41,834 bases of DNA from Candidatus Bathyarchaeota archaeon (GTDB lineage: Archaea > Thermoproteota > Bathyarchaeia > Bathyarchaeales > Bathycorpusculaceae), in contig JALHSY010000046.1 in assembly GCA_022865455.1 (NCBI GenBank), forward strand, positions 1 through 41,834, read 5' to 3'. This document shows positions 9,433 through 40,643 of the stretch, in pieces. The notes under the pieces are model-generated. The model ran no database searches. It was not told the DNA's origin and saw only the letters and a list, made by a program, of their open reading frames with translations. Both the position numbers and the translations under genes were made by a program. Position 1 is the stretch's first letter, and each line of letters opens with the position of its first letter.

Positions 9433-9891
9433 TTGTTGGGCGAAGATAATAGTAGAAAAGAGATAGATAGAAAGAAAGAAGAATTAATAATTAATATTAA
9501 TAATAAATCTACTATCAACGCGTTCAGCTTTCCCGCGAATAAGTTAGAAATACTTGAAAAATTCAGGCAGATTGCCAGGCGAGAGAAAGGCCACCGAGGG
9601 TTCAGTCTCAAACTTCAAGAAATGATAATAAAAGAGGTTGGAGAGCATTGGCGTGGCAACGAGCAGTTACTTATGGATCATTATGTAAACCCTGACGCTC
9701 CAAACCCGAACCATTCTCTCTGCAACTATCAGCGCGGCCACAAAAGAGACGGAAAAGTTTTCTGCACTAATCCCTCAGCGGTTCCAAGACACAATATGAT
9801 TGTTGACAAGGGAATCGAAGGCATGTGGATCCCCGGCGTGTCGTGCTACAGCTGCAAAAGCAATCGTCTCAAGAGGGCGGACAAAAAATGA
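9433..9891 (+). CDS. Hypothetical protein with helical basic N-terminal half and C-terminal Cys cluster
   Basis: The 152-residue product starts at TTG (9433 or 9436). The N-terminal part is very polar and Asn/Ile rich. A helical basic segment follows (KLEILEKFRQIARREKG, then FSLKLQEMIIKEVGEHW), which could bind DNA. The C-terminal third has SLCNYQRGH, VFCTNP and SCYSCKSN, a probable zinc site. The stop is shared in ATGA fashion with the next gene. No family is recognised; by position it is an early viral regulatory or replication accessory gene. Confidence 0.5.
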   Translation: MLGEDNSRKEIDRKKEELIININNKSTINAFSFPANKLEILEKFRQIARREKGHRGFSLKLQEMIIKEVGEHWRGNEQLLMDHYVNPDAPNPNHSLCNYQRGHKRDGKVFCTNPSAVPRHNMIVDKGIEGMWIPGVSCYSCKSNRLKRADKK

Positions 9892-22574: not shown

Positions 22575-22640
22575 ATGGATCAGATGGTCCTCGAGGAAAA
22601 GGAAAAGGCGGAGAAAGAGGCGAAGAAACATGGCCGTTGA
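22575..22640 (+). CDS. Short Lys/Glu-rich peptide or -1 frameshift extension of the chaperone
   Basis: From the ATG at 22575 the frame gives 21 residues (MDQMVLEEKEKAEKEAKKHG plus R). The same frame is open upstream into the chaperone gene, in the -1 register relative to it, from at least position 22470. It ends 11 bases inside the next gene. It may be an independent peptide, but a translational fusion is the more familiar arrangement in tail operons. GCAAAAA at 22536-22542 is only a partial slippery site. Confidence 0.35.
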   Translation: MDQMVLEEKEKAEKEAKKHGR

Positions 22641-22998
22641 AATAACCTGCGACATCGAAGGTGTTGAAGAGTTTCAAGTGGCTATGCAGAGGTTTGACTC
22701 TGCAATGCAAAATCAGGTCTACCGCTTTCTAGCTAGTTGGGCGGCTGACGTCAAGGGTGCAGCGATGCGGAACGCTCCAGTCCGCTCTGGCTACCTTCGC
22801 AGCACAATCTACGCAACGATTAAGGATTGGGTTGCCCAGATCGGCGCTGAAGCCACTTATGCTCTCTTCGTGGAGATGGGAACACGGCACATGCAAGCTC
22901 GGCCCTTCCTGTATCCAGCCATCCAGGAATACCTTCCTATGCTCGAAATGAATATCGTCGGGGCCCTCGAGCAGGCTAAAGCGGAGGCTGGCTTATAG
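22630..22998 (+). CDS. HK97 gp10-like neck/minor tail protein
   Basis: The 122-residue product has the family's hallmark NAPVRSGYLRSTIYATI and YALFVEMGTRHMQARPFLYP segments, followed by a C-terminal helix. The family joins head to tail or completes the tail. Here it lies after the chaperone gene and not among the neck genes, which is out of the common order. The stop shares a base with the GTG start of the next gene. Confidence 0.82.
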   Translation: MAVEITCDIEGVEEFQVAMQRFDSAMQNQVYRFLASWAADVKGAAMRNAPVRSGYLRSTIYATIKDWVAQIGAEATYALFVEMGTRHMQARPFLYPAIQEYLPMLEMNIVGALEQAKAEAGL

Positions 22999-23540
22999 TG
23001 TCATTTCGGGAAATTGCAGTTACGATTCGAGCGGTTAACCGGGCTAGTGCAGAGTTCTCCAGGATTCAGACCGACGCTGAGGCCCTCTCTGTGAGGGTGA
23101 AGAGTCTTGGCGCCGCTATTGCTGGTTTAGGCGCGACTGGGCTAGCTATCGGGCATATTGCTCACCAATTCGGCATATTAAATGATGAGCAAGCTAAAGT
23201 CTTCAATTCTGCTATGATGGTTGTCACGGTTATGGGCATGTTTATGCGGACTAGTATGGGCGTGGCCATCGCTCAGAAGGTCTACGCTGCTGCATGCTGG
23301 ATCGCTACTGCGGCCCAGAACAGCCTCAACATTTCTTACGCAACATTTCTAGCTCTAACAGGGGTCGGGATTGCCGTGATCGTCGCGGCTGCCGCAGCCA
23401 TGTGGTCTTTCGCAAGCAGCATGAATGCAGCCACATCTAGTGTCCAAGGCTTCAACGCAGCCACTAGCGAGGTGCCTTCCCGTAGTCGTGGCGTTCAGAG
23501 AGCTGGAGAGCAAGCCATGTATCGCAGAGGAGTTGAATGA
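22998..23540 (+). CDS. Short tape-measure-like protein
   Basis: The 180-residue product starts at GTG. The opening (EIAVTIRAVNRASAEFSRIQ, then DAEALSVRVKSLGAAIAGLG) is that of tape measure proteins. Two hydrophobic stretches follow (VIVAAAAAMWSFASSM and MMVVTVMGMFMRTSM). At 180 residues it is far below the usual 600-2000. It would set a very short tail, or it is the remnant of a longer gene cut off near SEVPSRSRGVQRAG. The next gene overlaps its end by 8 bases. Confidence 0.6.
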   Translation: MSFREIAVTIRAVNRASAEFSRIQTDAEALSVRVKSLGAAIAGLGATGLAIGHIAHQFGILNDEQAKVFNSAMMVVTVMGMFMRTSMGVAIAQKVYAAACWIATAAQNSLNISYATFLALTGVGIAVIVAAAAAMWSFASSMNAATSSVQGFNAATSEVPSRSRGVQRAGEQAMYRRGVE

Positions 23541-25161
23541 AACGTCTGTAGAGATTCCAAAGTGTGCCATTGCTTTTGGCGCCGTTGCGCCGCCTCAGGG
23601 CGACATAGTAGATCTTCAAGTCCATCTGGGCTGCACGAAGGAAGTAAGCAGTTTCGAGGTTCTGTTGCAGAATTGGGGTAAGAAGTACAGTCCCGGCGGA
23701 GCGACGCCCATCCTTGTTGGAGTGGACGGGCACATCGACATTGGCAGAGGCGTGTTTGTTCCGCAGTTGATTACTTGCCGTGTTGAAAGCGTCAAGTGCG
23801 AATCAACTCCAACCGAAAACTACATTCGTGTTAGTGGTCGTTGTTGGGGAGAGAAGCTTTTCCGCAGAACCGTGACCAAAACTTACGAGAACAAAAAAGG
23901 CGAAGAGATCATCAAGGACTTGCTCGACTATTACGTTGGATTGAGCCACGTTCGCTATTTTGATGGCACGGGCGTTGAGCTGGTGGAAGATACTGATACA
24001 ACCTTTACAAAGCTGGCCTATGAAAACACGCCTGTCTGGGACATAATCAAATACGTTGCAGAGTCATCTGACTTGGCTGGCGTTATCGGCTACGATTTTC
24101 GTGTAGCGTTTGATGGTAAGTTCGAGTTTTTTGCAAAGAACAGTAAAGCTTCAGAAGTTAGCATCTCCGAGAAAATCGAGGCGAGCGAGTATCGCAAGGA
24201 CATCCATCGCATAAGAAACAAGATAACCAGTCAAGGAGCAAATGAAAAACAATATCCATCCGATGCGAATGATGACGGCTTAACGGAGACCACAACCGAC
24301 TGGACGGGCAGTGACCCGGTGATTCTGAGCAGCACCCACGTTATTGAGGATGGACAAAAAAAGTACACGGACTCGTATAGCATCTCCAACGACGCGTACG
24401 GTACGGTGCTAGAAAGATGGCTGCATAGAACGTTTTCGGCAATAAAAATGCGGGGACCTGACGGCTATAAACAAGTCGTGTTCTGGCATCACTGGACCGG
24501 GACTCAGGATGCGTTAGCCTCAGCGAAAGTTAGGCTCTATTCAGGGGCTAGTTACTTCGAGACTGACATTCTACCATTGGTTAGCTCTAAGGGAGCTTGG
24601 GTTAAAGTAACACTGCAGACGCAGACACCCGACTGGACCGTAAACGGCACGCCCAACTGGGACGCCATAGATGCCATCCGCTTCATAATCGCGTATCCGG
24701 CGATAGGCATAGCATACATTCGCATAGATCATCTGCGTTTCTGTGACTGCCGCTACTCCGCAGTGGCAGAGAATGAAGGAAGCCAAACTGCTTATGGCTT
24801 GCGTGAGCTCGTCGAGGTTGACGAGGAGCTTTACAGCGATAATGAGTGCCTGTTAAGGGCTGAAGCACTGCTTGCCTACTTGGAGGACCCGGCTGAATAC
24901 CTGACGGCAAGGAGCACGGTTATCGATTATGGTAGCACACCTATCTGGCAAGCCGACAAAATCCATGTCACACTGCCTAACGAGAACGTAGATGCTGATT
25001 TCCGTATAGAAAGCGTTGAGTATCATGTGGACGCTAAAACGCAGACGCTTGAAGTGACGCTGGAGCTTGGCAAGGTTCCTCCGATGCTTGCGGATTACCT
25101 GTATGCTCTCTGTAGCAAGACGGACCATTTGAGCCGTTACAAGGTTGCGAGGTTGATATAA
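23533..25161 (+). CDS. Tail tip/baseplate protein (Gp37/late-control-like)
   Basis: I place the start at the TTG at 23533 (LNETSVEIPKCAIAFGAVAP), giving 542 residues; the frame is open further up but overlaps the tape-measure gene without family-like sequence. The chain resembles phage Gp37-like and gpD-like hub proteins: SSFEVLLQNWGKKYSPGGAT, then RVSGRCWGEKLFRRTV and VWDIIKYVAESSDLAGVIGY. A beta-sandwich insertion follows at about 290-430 with an aromatic-rich FWHHWTG, then the C-terminal domain ending VTLELGKVPPMLADYLYAL. It should form the distal tail hub. Confidence 0.66.
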   Translation: MNETSVEIPKCAIAFGAVAPPQGDIVDLQVHLGCTKEVSSFEVLLQNWGKKYSPGGATPILVGVDGHIDIGRGVFVPQLITCRVESVKCESTPTENYIRVSGRCWGEKLFRRTVTKTYENKKGEEIIKDLLDYYVGLSHVRYFDGTGVELVEDTDTTFTKLAYENTPVWDIIKYVAESSDLAGVIGYDFRVAFDGKFEFFAKNSKASEVSISEKIEASEYRKDIHRIRNKITSQGANEKQYPSDANDDGLTETTTDWTGSDPVILSSTHVIEDGQKKYTDSYSISNDAYGTVLERWLHRTFSAIKMRGPDGYKQVVFWHHWTGTQDALASAKVRLYSGASYFETDILPLVSSKGAWVKVTLQTQTPDWTVNGTPNWDAIDAIRFIIAYPAIGIAYIRIDHLRFCDCRYSAVAENEGSQTAYGLRELVEVDEELYSDNECLLRAEALLAYLEDPAEYLTARSTVIDYGSTPIWQADKIHVTLPNENVDADFRIESVEYHVDAKTQTLEVTLELGKVPPMLADYLYALCSKTDHLSRYKVARLI

Positions 25162-25838: not shown

Positions 25839-26141
25839 GTGGTGAGAAGGGCGCGGGAAAGGCTTCAAAGGGACATGCAGAAGACCCGGTTGAAGCTTCT
25901 GCGGGATTTGGAAGATATGTTTAACATGGCTAAGGGCTACGCGCAGAATAAGGAAATAACCAAGACAGATGAACCTGTTGTTTCTCCAAAGCAAAAGCAG
26001 ATTTGGATTCGCATTATGGCTTACACTGGACAAGTCATGAACAGCATAAGCAAAAGTTTCGATGAAGCCCAAGTCACGAAGGATCTTGAACGTTTGGAGA
26101 AGTTGATTAATGAAGCAATGGCAAAAGAAGAAAGTAGATGA
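25839..26141 (+). CDS. Putative terminase small subunit
   Basis: The product of about 100 residues starts at GTG (25839 or 25842). It is helical and highly charged (RRARERLQRDMQKTRLKLLR; EAQVTKDLERLEKLINEAMA) and has no clear HTH. Its 3' end overlaps the large terminase gene by 32 bases, the best evidence for a TerS role. An upstream ATT start in frame cannot be excluded. Confidence 0.5.
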   Translation: MVRRARERLQRDMQKTRLKLLRDLEDMFNMAKGYAQNKEITKTDEPVVSPKQKQIWIRIMAYTGQVMNSISKSFDEAQVTKDLERLEKLINEAMAKEESR

Positions 26142-27570
26142 GTTAAAGGAAAAAGTTGAAGGTTTGATCCAAGCTAAAGCCAGAAGGATTCCCGAGAGTT
26201 TTGAGGAGTTTTGCGAGAAATGGCTTGGGCTTAAGCTTACGGATTATCAACGTGCAGGCGCAGAGCTGATCAAAAGAAAAGATAGTGTAGCTTTAAGGTG
26301 GTCTCGGCAAAGCGGCAAGACGCACATGGTCAGTGCGTGGCTGCTGCATTACGCCTTAAGGCATCCTGGGAGCCAAATTGCAATTGTGGGTCCTAGTTGG
26401 CGTCAAACAAAAATTCCAATTCGCAAGATTAACGGATTCCTTCCGAAGCTTCCGAAAGGCTTGTATAAAAAACCGCAGGCAACAATGGTTACCACGAGTA
26501 ACCATAGCCTTATCCAGGCTTTTCCTTGCAATCCTGAAACCATCAGGGGGTTTACGCTTAATGTGCTGTATGCTGACGAATTTAACTACGTTCCTCTGGA
26601 TCAAGAGCTTTATGACGCCATAGTGTTCACGCTTTCCACGACCAATGGCAAATTTGTTTGTAGTAGCACTCCTGGCGCCACGGATAGCATGTTTTGGAAG
26701 TTTTTCAATCGCCCTCAATATCGCCATTTTGCGAAGAGTCATGTGACGTGGCAGCAAGCCTTAGAGCCTAATGGTCCGTTGAAAAAGCGGAAAGTTGAGC
26801 AGCTGAAGGAAGAGTATTGTGATGATCGGTTCAGATGGCAGAGGGAGATGGAAGCCGAGTGGGCTGAGGATGAAGCGGTTTGGCTGCCACTTAGTTTGAT
26901 TACGAAATGTCAGGATGCGAGCCTAGAGTTGTGGGACTCTGAAACTGTTCATCAAGGCAGCTTTTTTGGGGGTGTAGATTTTGGTAAGGAGCAAGATTAT
27001 AGCGCTTTTGCAGTGGCTGAAAAGGTTGGTAGTAAATCCTTGTTGCGTCATCTTAAGGTGTGGCCATTGGAGACGAAGTATGCAGCGGTTATCGGTTATG
27101 TTAAGACGTTTGCGGATCGTTGGCAAAGCTTCGAGAAGATCCGTTGCGATATTACAGGAGTTGGTAACTATATTGTTGAGGACATGATTAATGGCGGAAT
27201 CGAAAATGTGGAGGGTGTTAGCTTTTCTCATCCTCGAAAACAAGAGATGGCTAGCCTGCTTAAACAACGTATGCTGAACAGCGCATTTGCTTACCCATAC
27301 GCTGAAGTTAATGTGTCGCCCTCGAAAAAGCTGAATTTCTCGACGGAGCTCAACACGGAGAGATTCGAACTTAAAAAGGATGGTACTTACCGATTTTTCC
27401 ATCCTCAGAACCAGCATGATGATGTTTTTTGGGCTACTGCCTTGGCGCTTTATGCGACTGTTGAGATGCAGCCAGAGCCGTTTTTGGCTGTTATTCCTCG
27501 TAGGGCTAATAAGTTGCACCGGGTCCGTAAGGGATTGGCGAAACGTAAGGTTATGGGTGATGGCCGCTAA
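26110..27570 (+). CDS. terL: Terminase large subunit (packaging ATPase-nuclease)
   Basis: The 486-residue motor protein has the ATPase parts Walker A SRQSGKT (65-71), Walker B LYADE (153-157) and coupling motif SSTPG (185-189). The RNase-H-like nuclease has Asp290 in GGVDFGKEQDYSAF, Asp347 in RCDITGVG and Asp437/Asp438 in HDDVFWATALA. It cuts and pumps viral DNA into the head through the portal. All catalytic positions are intact. The terminase genes lie at the far right of the structural block, opposite the common terminase-first order. Confidence 0.92.
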   Translation: MKQWQKKKVDELKEKVEGLIQAKARRIPESFEEFCEKWLGLKLTDYQRAGAELIKRKDSVALRWSRQSGKTHMVSAWLLHYALRHPGSQIAIVGPSWRQTKIPIRKINGFLPKLPKGLYKKPQATMVTTSNHSLIQAFPCNPETIRGFTLNVLYADEFNYVPLDQELYDAIVFTLSTTNGKFVCSSTPGATDSMFWKFFNRPQYRHFAKSHVTWQQALEPNGPLKKRKVEQLKEEYCDDRFRWQREMEAEWAEDEAVWLPLSLITKCQDASLELWDSETVHQGSFFGGVDFGKEQDYSAFAVAEKVGSKSLLRHLKVWPLETKYAAVIGYVKTFADRWQSFEKIRCDITGVGNYIVEDMINGGIENVEGVSFSHPRKQEMASLLKQRMLNSAFAYPYAEVNVSPSKKLNFSTELNTERFELKKDGTYRFFHPQNQHDDVFWATALALYATVEMQPEPFLAVIPRRANKLHRVRKGLAKRKVMGDGR

Positions 27571-27779: not shown

Positions 27780-29252
27780 TTGAGAAGACACAGAGAGTTT
27801 TTCCGCATCCGCCAGCTTCGCAGGGTCTACGACAGAAGCCAGAACAGGTTCACCTTCAACATTTCGTATGAGACAGCTGCCAAGACCACGCCGAGGAGTA
27901 TAGCGGTTGCTGAGGCGTTCGGGCTTGGGTTAGACGAAGAGAAACGCTTCGTGATTTATGATAACGTGGAGTTGCAGGTGAAGCCTGACGACGTCGTCAT
28001 GGTCACGGGCGACAGTGGATCTGGGAAGAGCGTGTTACTACGAGCATTACGGGAGGATCTCGGCTCCGAAGCTGTGGACATGACAGAACTCGAGATTTCT
28101 AGCACTAAACCGTTAATCGAGACTGTAGGAGAGACGGTTGAAGAGGGCATTGAGACTCTAAGTCGCGTTGGCTTGAATGACGCATTTCTCTTCCTCAGGT
28201 CTTATGACCAGTTGAGTGACGGGCAGAAGTACCGTTACCGCATAGCCAAAATGGTTGAGAGTGGCAAACAGTGGTGGGTCGGCGATGAATTCTGTGCAAC
28301 GCTGGACCGCGATACGGCGAAGATTGTGGCGTTTAACGTGCAGAAGCTTGCAAGAACCTTGGGAAAGGCTGTTGTTGTGGCCACGACTCACACGGATTTG
28401 TTTGAGGATTTGAAGCCCAGCGTACACATCCACAAGAGGTTCGGCAAGGAAATCTGTGTAGTGTACTATACAAACGAGCCTGCAAGGGAATGCAGCCTTG
28501 TCAGAGAGATGCGTGTTGAAGAGGGTACAATGCAGGATTGGAACCAGCTCGCCGGCTTTCATTATCGTAGTCACAGGGTAGTTGCGCCTCGCAAAATCTT
28601 CTGTCTTAAGCGGGGGACCGAGGTGTGCGGAGTGATCGTTTATTGTTATCCGCCTCCCAGTGCCTACGGTCGAAGAATGGTTCTGCCCCGAATGAGCATG
28701 AAGGAATTGAATGAGAAGTTGAGCATTATCAACCGTGTGGTTGTGCATCCGAAGTATCGGAGTGTCGGTTTGGGTGCCAGGCTTATTCGTGAGTCGTTGG
28801 GTTTGGCTGGGACAGAGTTTGTGGAGATGATTGCGGTGATGGCTAAGTACAATCCTTTTGCAGAGAAGGCGGGGATGAAGAAGGTTACTGAGCAGGAGCC
28901 TCAGAGGGAGATTTTACGGGCTTCCAAGGTCCTTGAACAAGTCGGGTTTAATGTTCAGCTGCTTGGAAGCGGGAACTATGTATTTCAGAAACTTCAAGCA
29001 CTTAATGCCGACGGCCTGGAAAGGGTTAGGGAGGCCTTCGTCAAAGCTGACCATCCGCGCTTCTCAAAGTTTTTCAGCTCAGGGCTTCCATTCGGGCATA
29101 TGGGGGATTACGAGAGAAAGGTGAATGCTGCAACCTTGGAGCAGCTTGCAAGCCTTATCAAGATCTGCGGTTTTCTGATGCAGACGAAGGCTTACCTTTT
29201 CTGGAAATCCAAAAATCTTTGGAACAAATCTGGAATCTCTATAAATCTCTGA
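27780..29252 (+). CDS. ABC-type ATPase fused to GNAT acetyltransferase-like domain (COG2401-type)
   Basis: The 490-residue product starts at TTG. The ABC ATPase has Walker A GDSGSGKS (77-84), signature LSDGQKYRYRIA (145-156), Walker B WWVGDE (165-170) and switch His204 in ATTHTDL. A GNAT-like domain follows at about 250-400, with the acetyl-CoA loop region VVVHPKYRSVGLGARLI (320-336). There are no membrane segments, so it is not a transporter. Fusions of this sort occur next to terminase genes in mobile elements, and their reaction is unknown to me. The C-terminal 90 residues are extra. Confidence 0.78.
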   Translation: MRRHREFFRIRQLRRVYDRSQNRFTFNISYETAAKTTPRSIAVAEAFGLGLDEEKRFVIYDNVELQVKPDDVVMVTGDSGSGKSVLLRALREDLGSEAVDMTELEISSTKPLIETVGETVEEGIETLSRVGLNDAFLFLRSYDQLSDGQKYRYRIAKMVESGKQWWVGDEFCATLDRDTAKIVAFNVQKLARTLGKAVVVATTHTDLFEDLKPSVHIHKRFGKEICVVYYTNEPARECSLVREMRVEEGTMQDWNQLAGFHYRSHRVVAPRKIFCLKRGTEVCGVIVYCYPPPSAYGRRMVLPRMSMKELNEKLSIINRVVVHPKYRSVGLGARLIRESLGLAGTEFVEMIAVMAKYNPFAEKAGMKKVTEQEPQREILRASKVLEQVGFNVQLLGSGNYVFQKLQALNADGLERVREAFVKADHPRFSKFFSSGLPFGHMGDYERKVNAATLEQLASLIKICGFLMQTKAYLFWKSKNLWNKSGISINL

Positions 29253-29353: not shown

Positions 29354-31459
29354 GTGGAGGTGAGAATAACGTTAAATTCCGAAGAGGAACAAATACCTGC
29401 AAAGGTAACCGAGATGCCACCTAAGAAGAAGAGAAAACAAGAGGCACTCACAGTCTCAAGGCTCATACACGAAGTCTTAGTAAGCCAACTGAGCATCCCA
29501 CTACACCAAATCGTGAATGACACAACGTTTGCAGAGTACACTGGGTCAAAACGTCCTGACCTCTTAATTTCTGAATTTGAGTACGATCGAGTGAAGAAAA
29601 ACGATGCCCAATTCATCAATAATCTTGTTGCTTACGCGGAAGCCAAAGACGACTGTATTGTGAAAGGTGTAGATTGGTTAGATGCGATTCAGCAAGGTCT
29701 GACGAAAGCTCCGAAGCTCAAGCTTCCTTATTTCATCGTAACGAATGGTAAGACCAGCATATTTTACAATGCCAAGACTCAGAATGAAATAAAACTCAAT
29801 GGTAATCCGATTAGAGAATTTCAGACAATAGATATTCTTAGGTTAATAAAGAATCGGCTTTCAAAAGACCCTGATTTAGATAACATAATCACTAACGTAG
29901 ATTCAATCTCGGTCATCTCAGAAGCGATATTCAACAAGAAACTATGGGAACTCGCAAAGATTTACAGGAACATAAATTTCGAAAACAATGTTCAAAAAAT
30001 AGACTTCACGGTCGGCTTCATTTCACTGGAGTATTTTGAGGAAAGAGAAACGATAAAGGGAGTGAAAGACGCAACCAAGATTTACTGGTCAGATTGCTCA
30101 AACCATGCAGCGAATTATCCCTCTGAGAAGATTGTGGCAAGTCTTTCTCGGTATATAGAAAGACTGGAACAGGAATCGCAATTTGGCGAGTTTGTTGATT
30201 TAATGGAAAAGGTTCACATTGCGATAGCTGGAAAAGGAACAGTTAAACCATTAGTCAGCCATGACGAAGTGAAACAGGTCTATGAATTGATAGATTCGAT
30301 GAAACCTCTTCATGGTTGTGGCTTCGACCTCTTTGGGGCTGTCTATGAAATGTTCGCTAGTAGCAAGGAAAAGAAGGATTTTGGCGAATACTTTACTCGT
30401 AGACATTATGCACATATTCTTACAAAACTACTCCTTCGCAACGAACAGTATTTTGATGAAAACAGGAAATTTAGGATACTTGACCCAGCTTGCGGTACAG
30501 GTGGATTCTTGACAGAAGGTTTCAAAGTACTGCGAAATGCTTATGCTAAAACTAACACGCTGACTGCAAAAGCTGAAAAATTTCTAGAAGAAGATTGTTT
30601 CTATGGAATTGATGTAAGAAGAGAGAATATTTCCAGAACGAAACTTAACATGTTCTTGGTTGGAGATGGACACACAAATATGGAGGATATTAATACTTTA
30701 ACGAAGAAATTCGGCAAAGGAGACCTATGGGATTATGTTATTACGAATCCACCAGTTGGTGCAGGAACAATCAGAGCTGAAACATCTGTAGTTTCATCCA
30801 ACCGTACCGAAGTTTGTTTCCTATACAAAGTTATTAGCCTGCTCAAAGATGGCAAAAAGGCTTGCATCTTACTCCCTGATGGTATTCTAGAAAATGCACA
30901 ATTTACAGAACTTAGAAAGGATTTGTTGGAGAAATGCGATATAGAAGCAATCGTGTCTCTTCCGAAATTTGCTTTCGCCCCCTACACAAAAGAGAAGATG
31001 TATGCTGTTTTCTTTACGAAAAAGAACGAGGCAATGACCAAAATCCAGAAACAACCGATATGGATGTACATCATAGATAATGACGGTTTGGCAAATTCCG
31101 ACAAACGCTTTCCCACGAAATTGCGGAATAATCAAAACGGATGGTTGCATGATGAGATTTCAGGATGGGTAAGTACTGATGGTGAAGAAATGGTTGGATT
31201 GCTTGAAGAAAGGTGGCTCAAGTCTGATGATTCTTCAACAGATGGCACACAATGGATTGGTGAGAAAGGACAAGCTGTCAAATTCAGAAAAGGAGGACTC
31301 ATATCAATAACGGCAATTACGGAAAAGAAGTCACAGTATTGCCTTCTGCCAGAATATTATCTACGCCCATTCAAGCCAAATTTCATAACTGCCGAAGAAT
31401 TATCTGAAGAGATCAGCTTGATTGAACAAGAAGTCAAAAACTTAGAGGCAATCGCATGA
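29354..31459 (+). CDS. Restriction-modification protein: HsdR-N-type nuclease fused to N6-adenine methylase
   Basis: The 701-residue product starts at GTG. Residues about 35-145 form a PD-(D/E)xK nuclease of the HsdR N-terminal type, with Asp69 in KRPDLL and Glu96/Lys98 in AYAEAKDD. Residues about 300-600 are an HsdM-like methylase with SAM motif I LDPACGTGGFL (376-386). Catalytic motif IV reads NPPV (465-468), where the family nearly always has an aromatic residue after NPP. A fused nuclease-methylase plus separate specificity subunit resembles BcgI-like type IIB systems. No translocase HsdR gene is visible. It overlaps the specificity gene by 4 bases. Confidence 0.8.
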   Translation: MEVRITLNSEEEQIPAKVTEMPPKKKRKQEALTVSRLIHEVLVSQLSIPLHQIVNDTTFAEYTGSKRPDLLISEFEYDRVKKNDAQFINNLVAYAEAKDDCIVKGVDWLDAIQQGLTKAPKLKLPYFIVTNGKTSIFYNAKTQNEIKLNGNPIREFQTIDILRLIKNRLSKDPDLDNIITNVDSISVISEAIFNKKLWELAKIYRNINFENNVQKIDFTVGFISLEYFEERETIKGVKDATKIYWSDCSNHAANYPSEKIVASLSRYIERLEQESQFGEFVDLMEKVHIAIAGKGTVKPLVSHDEVKQVYELIDSMKPLHGCGFDLFGAVYEMFASSKEKKDFGEYFTRRHYAHILTKLLLRNEQYFDENRKFRILDPACGTGGFLTEGFKVLRNAYAKTNTLTAKAEKFLEEDCFYGIDVRRENISRTKLNMFLVGDGHTNMEDINTLTKKFGKGDLWDYVITNPPVGAGTIRAETSVVSSNRTEVCFLYKVISLLKDGKKACILLPDGILENAQFTELRKDLLEKCDIEAIVSLPKFAFAPYTKEKMYAVFFTKKNEAMTKIQKQPIWMYIIDNDGLANSDKRFPTKLRNNQNGWLHDEISGWVSTDGEEMVGLLEERWLKSDDSSTDGTQWIGEKGQAVKFRKGGLISITAITEKKSQYCLLPEYYLRPFKPNFITAEELSEEISLIEQEVKNLEAIA

Positions 31460-32598
31460 CCGAGTTTCTAGATATTTTTAAGCCAATTCAAAAGGGCAAT
31501 TTCGGTCTTACTGATGAAGCCATTTATAGATCAATTCAGCATGGGGGTCAATTCATCCCTGTATATGGTGGAACAAAAGAACACACTACGACAGACCGAT
31601 TCGTTTCAGAATATGGAAAAACGAAGTATGATGGATCTATTACGATTTTCACTGGTGATGGGATAATCATCAGTCTTGATGGGAGTTCAGGATGCATGAC
31701 CTATGTAATGGCTAAAAGATTCGCTCTAAATCATCATGCGGGATTCTTTCAGTTAAAAGAGGATGCAAAACAAGTAATTGACCCAGAGTTCTTCAGTCTC
31801 TTCTTTGAGAAACAACTTCAGGAAGCGAGCGTTAGCGAAGGCTCTAAAACATTGACCCTAAGTATGATAGAATCTATGGATTTTGATATGCCTCCGTACA
31901 GTGTCCAAATGAAGGTCATGTCAAGAATAAGATCACTTTTGAAAGTGAAAGAGAGAGTCAATAACCTGATCTCAAGAATAAATTCCGTCAAAGAAAGAAT
32001 ACTTTTGGTTGAATATCGAGATTATCAAGCAAAAGATGTTTCTGTTGGAGATGTTCTGGATTGCATGAGTGGAAATTCTGGACTTACAGAAGAGTATCTA
32101 TATTCGCAAATTAAAGATAATTCCGAAAAAAAATATCATATTTTGACAGCTAGCACCGAGCATGAATTGAGTCAGTATGTGTCTAGATGCAAACATCCAA
32201 AGGATTCAAGCAAAATGATAACAGTCGTGGAAGGAAAACCTGTGATTCATGTCGTACGAATCGGAAAAGCAGGCTCTGTCACATATTTTGAAAACGGCGA
32301 TTATACCACCACTGAAAATGCCTATCTTCTTTATTTGAAGGATAATTTGAAATACGATCTTAGCCTCAAATGGCTAACGTATGCACTAGCACCAGAGTTT
32401 TCGGAGTATTCCAACATTGCGGAATATGGAACTTGGAATATGACTGGTTTTTTCGAGCGTGTAAAGATTGCTATTCCATCTTATGAAGAGCAACTCGAAC
32501 TTGTTGAGAAGTATGAACGCCTTGAACTACTACAAGCAAAGTTACAAAGCATTTTGACAAAGATTGACCAACTCTTCACTAAGCAAATAGTTATCTAG
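31456..32598 (+). CDS. hsdS: Specificity subunit (HsdS-like)
   Basis: The 380-residue product has two target-recognition halves, each closed by a helical coiled coil: QMKVMSRIRSLLKVKERVNN near residues 153-172, and EQLELVEKYERLELLQAKLQ near the end. The first half ends SMIESMDFDMPPYSVQMKVM and the second NMTGFFERVKIAIPSYEEQL, the repeated -PPY/IPSYEEQ- hallmark of HsdS. It would direct the fused nuclease-methylase to a bipartite DNA site. ATGA overlap with the upstream gene. Confidence 0.85.
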   Translation: MTEFLDIFKPIQKGNFGLTDEAIYRSIQHGGQFIPVYGGTKEHTTTDRFVSEYGKTKYDGSITIFTGDGIIISLDGSSGCMTYVMAKRFALNHHAGFFQLKEDAKQVIDPEFFSLFFEKQLQEASVSEGSKTLTLSMIESMDFDMPPYSVQMKVMSRIRSLLKVKERVNNLISRINSVKERILLVEYRDYQAKDVSVGDVLDCMSGNSGLTEEYLYSQIKDNSEKKYHILTASTEHELSQYVSRCKHPKDSSKMITVVEGKPVIHVVRIGKAGSVTYFENGDYTTTENAYLLYLKDNLKYDLSLKWLTYALAPEFSEYSNIAEYGTWNMTGFFERVKIAIPSYEEQLELVEKYERLELLQAKLQSILTKIDQLFTKQIVI

Positions 32599-36485: not shown

Positions 36486-36610
36486 AAGCGTCTCACACAC
36501 CGACTTGCTTGCTTAGTATCGACTTGACAGAAACCCGTACTTGGCTTTTTCCATTAAACAATGCGATTTAGCAACGCCCCAGCGCGCATTTGGAAATTGA
36601 CAGTCAGTTC

Positions 36611-36617
36611 TAAATAT
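36611..36617 (+). promoter_or_regulatory. TATA box for the nuclease-pair operon
   Basis: TAAATAT is centred 24 bases before the ATG at 36638, the spacing expected for a leaderless archaeal transcript. Confidence 0.5.
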
Positions 36618-36637: not shown

Positions 36638-37120
36638 ATGGACACCGAACAGTTAATCAAAAACATGAAAGCATCTCTCTTGATTGCGCGATGTCCAAAA
36701 TGCGACGAAGAGTTCAAGCTTTCTGACTCACTGCTTTTTGATGGCATGAAAAGATTCCCAGATGCTGCCGAACAGATCAGGATACAGCTTGCCGAAGAAC
36801 TAGAGAAGAAAAAGAAGGAACTTGAGAAAAGAAAAATATCAGTTGATGTGACTGCTGAAAAGAAAGCGATTGAGGTAGGCTTCGGTAAGATGATAGAGAA
36901 ATTTCTTCCGGCATACAAGGATCTTGAACTGCAATTTGCCGAATGCAGACCTTTGTATGATCCTATTGACGTGTTGGTTTTCAATGGGTTGTTAAACAGG
37001 AAAGTTGACAGCATTACGTTCCTAGAGATAAAATCAGGAAATTCAAAGCTAAACAACCATCAAAAGATGATAAAAGACGCTATACTAGACAAGAAAGCCG
37101 ACATGAGGGTTCTAGGATGA
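36638..37120 (+). CDS. Holliday-junction-resolvase-like endonuclease (active-site intact)
   Basis: The 160-residue product has one zinc-type knuckle CPKC (19-22), a charged coiled coil (LAEELEKKKKELEKRKISVD), then a resolvase-like PD-(D/E)xK domain. That domain shows PLYDPIDVLVFNG with Asp108 and Asp111, and SITFLEIKSG with Glu130 and Lys132. This resembles COG4741-type proteins, distant relatives of archaeal Hjc. It probably acts on branched or damaged DNA. It overlaps the next gene, a degenerate paralogue, by 4 bases (ATGA), suggesting a heteromeric complex. The transcript appears leaderless. Confidence 0.72.
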   Translation: MDTEQLIKNMKASLLIARCPKCDEEFKLSDSLLFDGMKRFPDAAEQIRIQLAEELEKKKKELEKRKISVDVTAEKKAIEVGFGKMIEKFLPAYKDLELQFAECRPLYDPIDVLVFNGLLNRKVDSITFLEIKSGNSKLNNHQKMIKDAILDKKADMRVLG

Positions 37121-37623
37121 AAGAATCGATAGATGTTTTCCAACAGTTTAGAAAAATCCTTTGCGTCTGCCCTTGCTGTGGGGAGATAGTAAGACTGAGT
37201 GACCTTCATCTCAAATACTCTGGCAAAACACCGAAAACTTGGCTTGACAAGCATGAGCTCCAGCTCCAATCCTTGGAGGAAAAAGAACAAGTCTTTGAAC
37301 AGAAAGAAGGAGAATTGCGGAAGAAATCAATAGAGCGCGGACGACGAAAGGTGCCTTTGCTGGTCAAGAAATGCCTCTGTCCAGAGTTCCAGGAACTGAA
37401 GTACGACCCATATGACATTAAGGCAGTTATGGATCCAGTGGATTTTGTGGTGTTTGATGGGCTTAATGAAGGAGAGGAGATAAGAAGCATTACGTTTCTA
37501 TCTCGAAAACCTAGTGCAGATACAGGCGTTGTGACCGAATCAATCAGAAAAACAGTGAAAAAAGGCAACTATGACTGGAAAGTGGCCAGAATAACAACAA
37601 CAGGAAAAGTCAGTCTCGAATGA
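37117..37623 (+). CDS. Holliday-junction-resolvase-like paralogue lacking the catalytic Glu
   Basis: The 168-residue product has the same layout as its neighbour: a Cys knuckle (CVCPCCGE), coiled coil (EEKEQVFEQKEGELRKKSIE), and nuclease-like fold with MDPVDFVVFDG (Asp106). The catalytic strand reads SITFLSRKPS, so the expected Glu is Ser129 while a Lys is kept at 131. It is probably a non-cleaving partner subunit. Identity with the neighbour is low outside these motifs. Confidence 0.7.
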   Translation: MKESIDVFQQFRKILCVCPCCGEIVRLSDLHLKYSGKTPKTWLDKHELQLQSLEEKEQVFEQKEGELRKKSIERGRRKVPLLVKKCLCPEFQELKYDPYDIKAVMDPVDFVVFDGLNEGEEIRSITFLSRKPSADTGVVTESIRKTVKKGNYDWKVARITTTGKVSLE

Positions 37624-39752: not shown

Positions 39753-39776
39753 GCATACAAGACCTTGGGGAAAACT

Positions 39777-40643
39777 ATGAAAAGTTTGCTCATTCGTGTT
39801 GCGATAGATTCAGGAAATATGGGTTACATAGGACCGATTGATGAAAGAACAATGGAATACGTGTATATACCTATCCCTACTATTGAAACGGCTCTCACAA
39901 AGCGGACATACAACACTGAAAGAGTGTGGCCGCGAAACACAGTTTTTGAAGGCAAGGTGTTGGCTGACTTCATGCACACTGACAGGGCAGAGGTTCGTTT
40001 GGATTACGACTGGATAGAACAAGTGTGGATTGAACGAAAACTCCCTGCAAATAGTCTGAAAATTCACTTTGATCCTGAGTTTGATGGGAATACTTATGGA
40101 GATTCTTGGGGAAACAGAATACCGTCAGACCTCATTTTGCCTAGTGCTCTAGATGAGGAGATTCATTTGTTCTTTTATGCGGGACTTGCACCTTATCCCA
40201 AGTGCTTCGAAAAGCGATCACAGCACCAAATCATAAGCAGTCAAAAATATAGTATGAACGTCTATGTTATTGGCCACTTTGAAATCGAAGGAATCTACAG
40301 TATCAGAAAAGAGGGAGATCTATCAACCTTCGAGAAAGAATTGGGAACGAATGCGCATTTCATTGAGAAGGAACACCTCAAGGGACTTGAGAAGTATCCG
40401 ATCAAAGCTGAGCGAGAGCATTTTTCGAACTTGGTGATTGTCAAGGGTAAGAAGAAGGAATCAAGAGGGCTCTTATCCAAGGCAATACAATTAACCAAAT
40501 GGAGTGAAAGAAAAAGAGCTTACATCCCAACAGAACTTGGCGAGATAGTAGGACTAAAACCGAATAGAGGGATCAGGCAGACCCCACACCTGGATAGTAA
40601 CAGTACCAGCTCCCTTTTGGACGAGATTGACTCGACAATCTAG
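39777..40643 (+). CDS. Nmad3-like (nucleotide-modification-associated) protein
   Basis: I take the ATG at 39777 (MKSLLIRVAIDSGNMGYIGP), 288 residues, over one four codons up. Matches to the Nmad3 pattern as I know it are the N-terminal strand with D-S-G-N, YIPIPTIETALTKRTYNTER, KIHFDPEFDGNTYGDSW, HLFFYAGLAPYP and MNVYVIGHFEIEGIY. The late segment NLVIVKGKKKESRGLLSKAI also fits. This domain was proposed from genome context to work with modified bases; its reaction is unproven. The C-terminal 20 residues are Ser-rich. Confidence 0.55.
   Translation: MKSLLIRVAIDSGNMGYIGPIDERTMEYVYIPIPTIETALTKRTYNTERVWPRNTVFEGKVLADFMHTDRAEVRLDYDWIEQVWIERKLPANSLKIHFDPEFDGNTYGDSWGNRIPSDLILPSALDEEIHLFFYAGLAPYPKCFEKRSQHQIISSQKYSMNVYVIGHFEIEGIYSIRKEGDLSTFEKELGTNAHFIEKEHLKGLEKYPIKAEREHFSNLVIVKGKKKESRGLLSKAIQLTKWSERKRAYIPTELGEIVGLKPNRGIRQTPHLDSNSTSSLLDEIDSTI

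Follow-up and report, generated by a model that had tools for sequence, protein, structure and literature searches.

A tandem pair of active and inactivated PF10107 nucleases in archaea and their proviruses, with a possible role in defence

The window, which is the whole stretch of 41,834 nucleotides analysed here, carries two neighboring nuclease genes on the same strand, gene A (36638–37120) and gene B (37117–37623), which overlap by the four bases ATGA. The features of the pair are listed below.

36608–36617, plus strand: TATA-like TTCTAAATAT, about 21–30 nt 5' of the A ATG, read from the sequence
36638–37120, plus strand: gene A, PF10107 nuclease of 160 aa with intact E87, D111 and E130-x-K132 (PF10107 E = 3.6e-19)
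36692–36703, plus strand: A Cys motif C19-x2-C22 (among the 19 A proteins, C22 in 18 and C19 in 17)
36968–36970, plus strand: A catalytic Asp, D111 in PID, invariant in 19 A proteins
37025–37033, plus strand: A E130-I131-K132 ([E/D]130 and K132 in all 19 A proteins)
37117–37120, plus strand: ATGA in which the stop of A and the start of B overlap, read from the sequence
37117–37623, plus strand: gene B, PF10107 pseudo-nuclease of 168 aa, D109 kept and both Glu absent (PF10107 E = 2e-15)
37162–37179, plus strand: B Cys motif C16-x-C18-P-C20-C21 (C18 in 19/19; C16 and C21 in 18/19)
37441–37443, plus strand: B Asp, D109 in PVD, retained in the pseudo-site and invariant in 19 B proteins
37501–37509, plus strand: B S129-R130-K131 in place of ExK (the usual B motif is [ST] then [KR])

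The coordinates and the ATGA overlap given for both genes in the preliminary description of this DNA are exact. The overlap is likely to couple the translation of A and B; among the 19 tandem pairs collected here, the A-to-B gap is −4 in 10, −1 in four and 0 in two, so that 16 of the 19 abut or overlap. The position of the TATA-like TTCTAAATAT makes a leaderless or near-leaderless transcript of the archaeal type plausible for the window pair. The earlier proposal of such a transcript thus fits the window, but no constant promoter-to-start spacing was seen in the other A–B pairs.

Both proteins match the Pfam profile PF10107 (Endonuc_Holl, COG4741), with bit scores of 69.6 for A and 57.4 for B against a curated cut-off of 23.8. 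The name Holliday resolvase comes from the Pfam label only, and COG4741 lies nearer to YraN in a published profile analysis (PMC1189080). Among the Pfam matches of A and B at E up to 1, PF01870 (Hjc/Hje) was absent, although the HMMER filters may miss remote kin. The common layout previously ascribed to the two proteins is borne out, as each has a short Cys motif along with a long helix and the nuclease core.

The four catalytic residues of A are kept in all 19 A proteins: E87, the Glu of the helix preceding the core Asp, together with D111, [E/D]130 and K132. The COG4741 motif E-(V/I)D-E(V/I)K described by Feder and Bujnicki (PMC1189080) is accordingly found in A (19/19). Glu130 and Lys132 had been recognized from the outset, whereas the catalytic Asp had been placed at position 108, which varies among D, E, N and K; the conserved residue is D111, within P[IV]D.

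Conversely, B has lost most of this site. Ser129 of B aligns with Glu130 of A, as first described, and the ExK Glu position is occupied by Ser, Thr or Ala in 18 of the 19 B proteins, usually with K or R after it. The possibility that homologues of B usually keep the Glu is not borne out, as it is present in a single, basal member. By comparison, an acidic residue at this position is absent from none of the 19 A proteins, and [E/D]xK is kept in 76 of 78 other PF10107 proteins. The helix Glu is also missing: the residue aligned with E87 of A is K85 in the window, and K, R, N, Q or T, never an acidic residue, in the 19 B proteins. Two further assignments required correction. Asp106, named as the matching Asp of B, varies among D, N, H and S, and the conserved Asp is D109 (19/19); Lys131 is indeed present in the window B but is kept in only some homologues, so the ExK Lys is not a conserved residue of B. 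Because the Asp alone is invariant, B is certain to retain one of the four catalytic positions. It lacks the COG4741 motif, of which 18 of the 19 B proteins retain the Asp only, and is thus a homologue rather than an active member of the family. It has conserved features of its own, namely TWLD and a C-terminal strand with Y-x-W. We also considered whether the Glu of B had moved to a neighboring position. An E or D occurs a few residues later in three loci (L070, L071 and L140) but is absent from the window B and others; therefore, B has no conserved replacement Glu.

The 19 tandem pairs are distributed over several archaeal phyla, with hosts among the Bathyarchaeota, other Thermoproteota/Nitrososphaerota, Thermoplasmatota (including Methanomassiliicoccales) and Nanoarchaeota/Pacearchaeota, and one lies on a viral contig. 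Of the 256 searched genomes of the class to which the window belongs, seven carry the pair, including that of the window, and nine have other PF10107 matches. The remaining pairs came from a phylum search, a GTDB profile search (Bathyarchaeota, Thermoplasmatota, Methanomassiliicoccales, Nanoarchaeota, Pacearchaeota and Thaumarchaeota), a Nanoarchaeota search with the pair in 2 of 327 genomes, and one IMG/VR contig; the collection is a sample, not a census. In agreement with the expectation that the pair is adjacent elsewhere, A lies immediately 5' of B in 19/19 loci, and no intact B without A was seen in the sampled genomes. A decayed N-terminal fragment of B occurs at about 1500–1640 of L086 (genome G721), with no recognisable A in the stretch read.

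Scans of viral contigs yielded a single pair-bearing contig (IMG/VR, L073), and phage records gave just two matches, from Acinetobacter phages (E 8e-3), to a COG4741-like protein. At 9642–10004 of L073, the A nuclease domain follows another N-terminus, which has neither the Cys motif nor the coil. The accompanying B is intact, but its Cys motif is altered in the second half. This joint change, a single case, is compatible with joint use of these parts by the two proteins.

A forms one clade (support 96/85) and B another (100/99) in a 72-protein tree, which shows that a single duplication gave rise to both. The divergent pair of genome G534 (L127 9814–10835, minus strand) is basal in both clades and has ExK in both proteins, ELK in A and ESK in B. 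Since this basal B keeps ESK, the loss of the Glu was not original to the pair. G534 may preserve the state before the site of B was lost, although long branches make its placement less sure. Two single-gene relatives, L010 and L128, lie near A in the tree, with a Cys motif and no membrane helix. The L128 gene (9530–10012, minus strand, genome G537) is a lone soluble Cys-motif relative of A with DAK, about 250 bp from a gene recognized by eye as cas6-like. A strongly hydrophobic N-terminal stretch, taken as a membrane helix, is found in 31 of 34 sampled single-gene PF10107 members and in none of the 19 A or 19 B proteins.

The identity distances of A and B are strongly correlated (r = 0.85, or 0.80 without G534), and none of 20,000 permutations reached so high a value. 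Together with the mixing of phyla in both halves of the tree, this correlation suggests that the pair was most likely transferred between archaeal lineages as a unit. Mean identity over the 19 pairs is 45% for B and 47% for A. The dN values are 0.12–0.26 for A and 0.13–0.21 for B, with dS at least 1.3 and often saturated, which gives a dN/dS of about 0.1 for both proteins with dS near saturation. B is under purifying selection comparable to that on A.

The pair resides in defence-rich regions, as the first description of its neighbors had suggested. Within a few kilobases, we identified an N4/N6 methyltransferase and a BglII enzyme (L068), an Eco57I/TaqI-type enzyme (L138), a C5 methyltransferase and a Vsr-like gene, the latter named by eye (L070), a D12 methyltransferase (L065), an N6/N4 methyltransferase (L140), a Dam-like gene and an EVE domain (L127), an NgoFVII-like PLD nuclease and Schlafen AlbA (L064), a NucS-like gene (L069), XPB-DUF790 (L061), AbiEii (L062) and DUF4268/DUF5655 (L029). 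Cas genes, recognized by eye and by mutual similarity, lie near L061 and L062. With three methyltransferase families as markers, 8 of 18 genomes have a methyltransferase no more than 7 kb from the pair, against 1.0 expected (P = 1.5e-6), and 4 of the 18 have one no more than 5 kb away, against 0.75 expected (P = 0.005). Such enrichment is expected of any gene living in defence islands and does not imply joint action with the methyltransferases. No third gene common to all pair loci was found. In PADLOC-DB 2.0.0, B is unmatched and A gives partial weak matches only, the best (E 1.1e-5) covering positions 286–412 of a 752-position model.

In the window itself, the pair lies in the cargo region of an archaeal head-tail provirus, with the following features.

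9433–41761, approximate limits: head-tail provirus; HsdM, HsdS, Nmad3 and the pair lie in its cargo region
22630–22998: neck protein
23425–25161: tail protein
26110–27570: terminase (PF03237, 1.1e-12)
27780–29252: ABC ATPase fused to a GNAT-like domain, adjoining the terminase
29354–31459: type I-like HsdM
31456–32598: HsdS, overlapping HsdM by 4 bp
39765–40643: Nmad3 (nucleotide modification associated domain 3) gene (E = 2.5e-13)

The match to a major-head protein is weak. The structural genes are followed by ABC-GNAT, HsdM, HsdS, small genes, the pair and Nmad3, and no HsdR was found within the window. Nmad3 is possibly a DNA modification cargo of the provirus. The ABC-GNAT gene and two small right-side genes are seen again beside the L029 pair and beside the pair of the viral contig L073; therefore, the pair is provirus or virus cargo in the window, L029 and L073.

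An AlphaFold2 model of B (27 rows; mean pLDDT 78, pTM 0.44) has a helix-hairpin N-terminus, a long helix (42–86) and a small alpha/beta core. For an A–B fusion, we used the in-frame genes of L063, with the intervening TAA read as Gly. This model (mean pLDDT 67.5, pTM 0.40) has a like layout in both halves; at a pTM of 0.40, the relative placement of the halves is not fixed, and no reliable interface is predicted. Foldseek, with the fusion and B models, and VIA-align, with the B model, returned no significant match, a negative from which we draw no inference; a PDB sequence search with the A and B profiles likewise gave none.

We propose that A and B together are an obligate heterodimeric PD-(D/E)XK nuclease and a mobile two-gene unit that most likely acts in defence against foreign DNA, a reading that we favor by a cautious judgment of the genomic evidence. 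The location of the pair among antiviral genes points to a probably one-sided DNA-cutting enzyme for defence. The asymmetric A–B dimer proposed at the outset is the best inference, but it is a prediction, with no interface in the fusion model. Also weighing against the reading are the replaced N-terminal part of A in the viral contig, the ESK retained by the basal G534 B, the structure searches without a significant match, and the methyltransferase enrichment being no more than any resident of defence islands would show. More tentatively, and with rather less confidence than the general reading, the pair could be an undescribed archaeal defence system in which an obligate active/inactive heterodimer nicks foreign, branched or modified DNA and moves between phyla and head-tail proviruses.

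In the proposed mechanism, the ancestor would have been a soluble protein with a Cys motif, related to the COG4741 nucleases, most of which are membrane-anchored. After one duplication, copy B would have lost the Glu residues that bind metal and kept the fold, the Asp, TWLD and the Y-x-W C-terminal strand. The two chains would probably dimerize via their long helices and Cys-motif ends, with A giving the sole active site and B giving DNA binding and positioning. A single site per dimer would then cut one strand per binding event, producing a nick, or a cut where the DNA is branched, damaged or modified. The pair would spread among archaea and proviruses as a self-contained two-gene unit.

The main alternative is that B, as a dead partner, inhibits A or gates it conditionally until infection or damage releases the nuclease, in a system resembling abortive infection or a toxin–antitoxin switch. 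We consider this unlikely. Antitoxins are rarely paralogues of their own toxin, and B retains a complete nuclease fold with its PVD Asp, which is beyond the needs of an inhibitor. The constant order of A followed by B also argues against a gate, whereas the constant coupling of the two genes and the lost site of B are in its favor. Restraint of the nuclease HamA by HamB provides a known precedent (PMC12278908).

Alternatively, the pair may be a DNA repair or recombination enzyme, such as a flap, branch or replication-fork nuclease resembling XPF-ERCC1 or MUS81-EME1, merely carried by mobile elements and islands. The combination of a catalytic protein with a dead paralogue is the design of the eukaryotic branch nucleases, and one pair adjoins the XPB-DUF790 couple and another the NucS-like gene. 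However, the sporadic distribution in the class and Nanoarchaeota searches is unlike that of housekeeping repair, and the mixed phyla of the tree and the restriction and CRISPR neighbors also argue against it. We regard a repair role as slightly less probable still than a gate.

The pair could instead supply the nuclease for modification enzymes encoded nearby, for example, for HsdM–HsdS, which have no R gene in the window; methyltransferases adjoin several other pairs as well. This appears quite improbable, since the methyltransferases are of unrelated types and vary in distance and strand, the one at L068 already has its own BglII enzyme, and many pairs have no methyltransferase nearby. Finally, the loss of catalytic residues might mark B as a decaying, functionless duplicate, but this is ruled out for practical purposes by its A-like conservation, the dN/dS of about 0.1 and its intact state in 19/19 loci against the one decayed fragment.

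The heterodimeric defence nuclease that we favor would be a candidate module for defence in archaea that are difficult to cultivate, and it provides a strong genomic context for PF10107, a family without a tested function in the literature found. The G534 pair, with ExK in both proteins, would allow the change from a homodimer to an asymmetric enzyme to be watched.

Close analogies in design are XPF-ERCC1 and MUS81-EME1, in which a catalytic PD-(D/E)XK-type subunit is joined by a paralogous subunit with a lost site. The A–B pair is alike in being paralogous, with one member dead yet conserved. These enzymes, however, are eukaryotic, carry HhH domains and act in repair, whereas A–B is archaeal, mobile and located in defence-rich regions; no sequence relation between them was found. 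The archaeal tRNA splicing endonuclease likewise combines an active with an inactive paralogue in a heteromer, but it has an RNA substrate, an unrelated active site and a core function; it appeared in the Foldseek list as a non-significant match. Compared with Hjc/Hje (PF01870), a symmetric dimer with two active sites, the A–B dimer would differ, as B lacks the site in 18 of 19 pairs; an A homodimer is possible.

Within archaea, COG1395 (P. abyssi PAB2104) links a Holliday-resolvase-like domain to another that has been inactivated (PMC1189080). It resembles A–B in combining an active and an inactivated domain, but it is a single polypeptide of a different family with an HTH between the domains, and not a two-gene mobile pair. 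The restriction enzymes BspD6I and BbvCI are heterodimers of strand-specific subunits that nick if one site works (PMC6261011, PMC6326814). They share with A–B the use of two different subunits; as described there, both subunits of BbvCI have an active site and the large subunit of BspD6I nicks alone, whereas B is naturally dead. PF10107/COG4741 itself shares the homologous nuclease domain, with its motif present in A (PMC1189080). The other members seen here are single genes, mostly with a membrane helix, in contrast to A and B, which have no helix, carry Cys motifs and form an active/inactive pair. No description of the A–B pair was found in the literature consulted. The design of an active protein with a dead paralogue is known from other families, and nucleases built in this way are well known in eukaryotes. 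The A–B pair is a new case of this design; being small, mobile and archaeal, it would offer a simple system.
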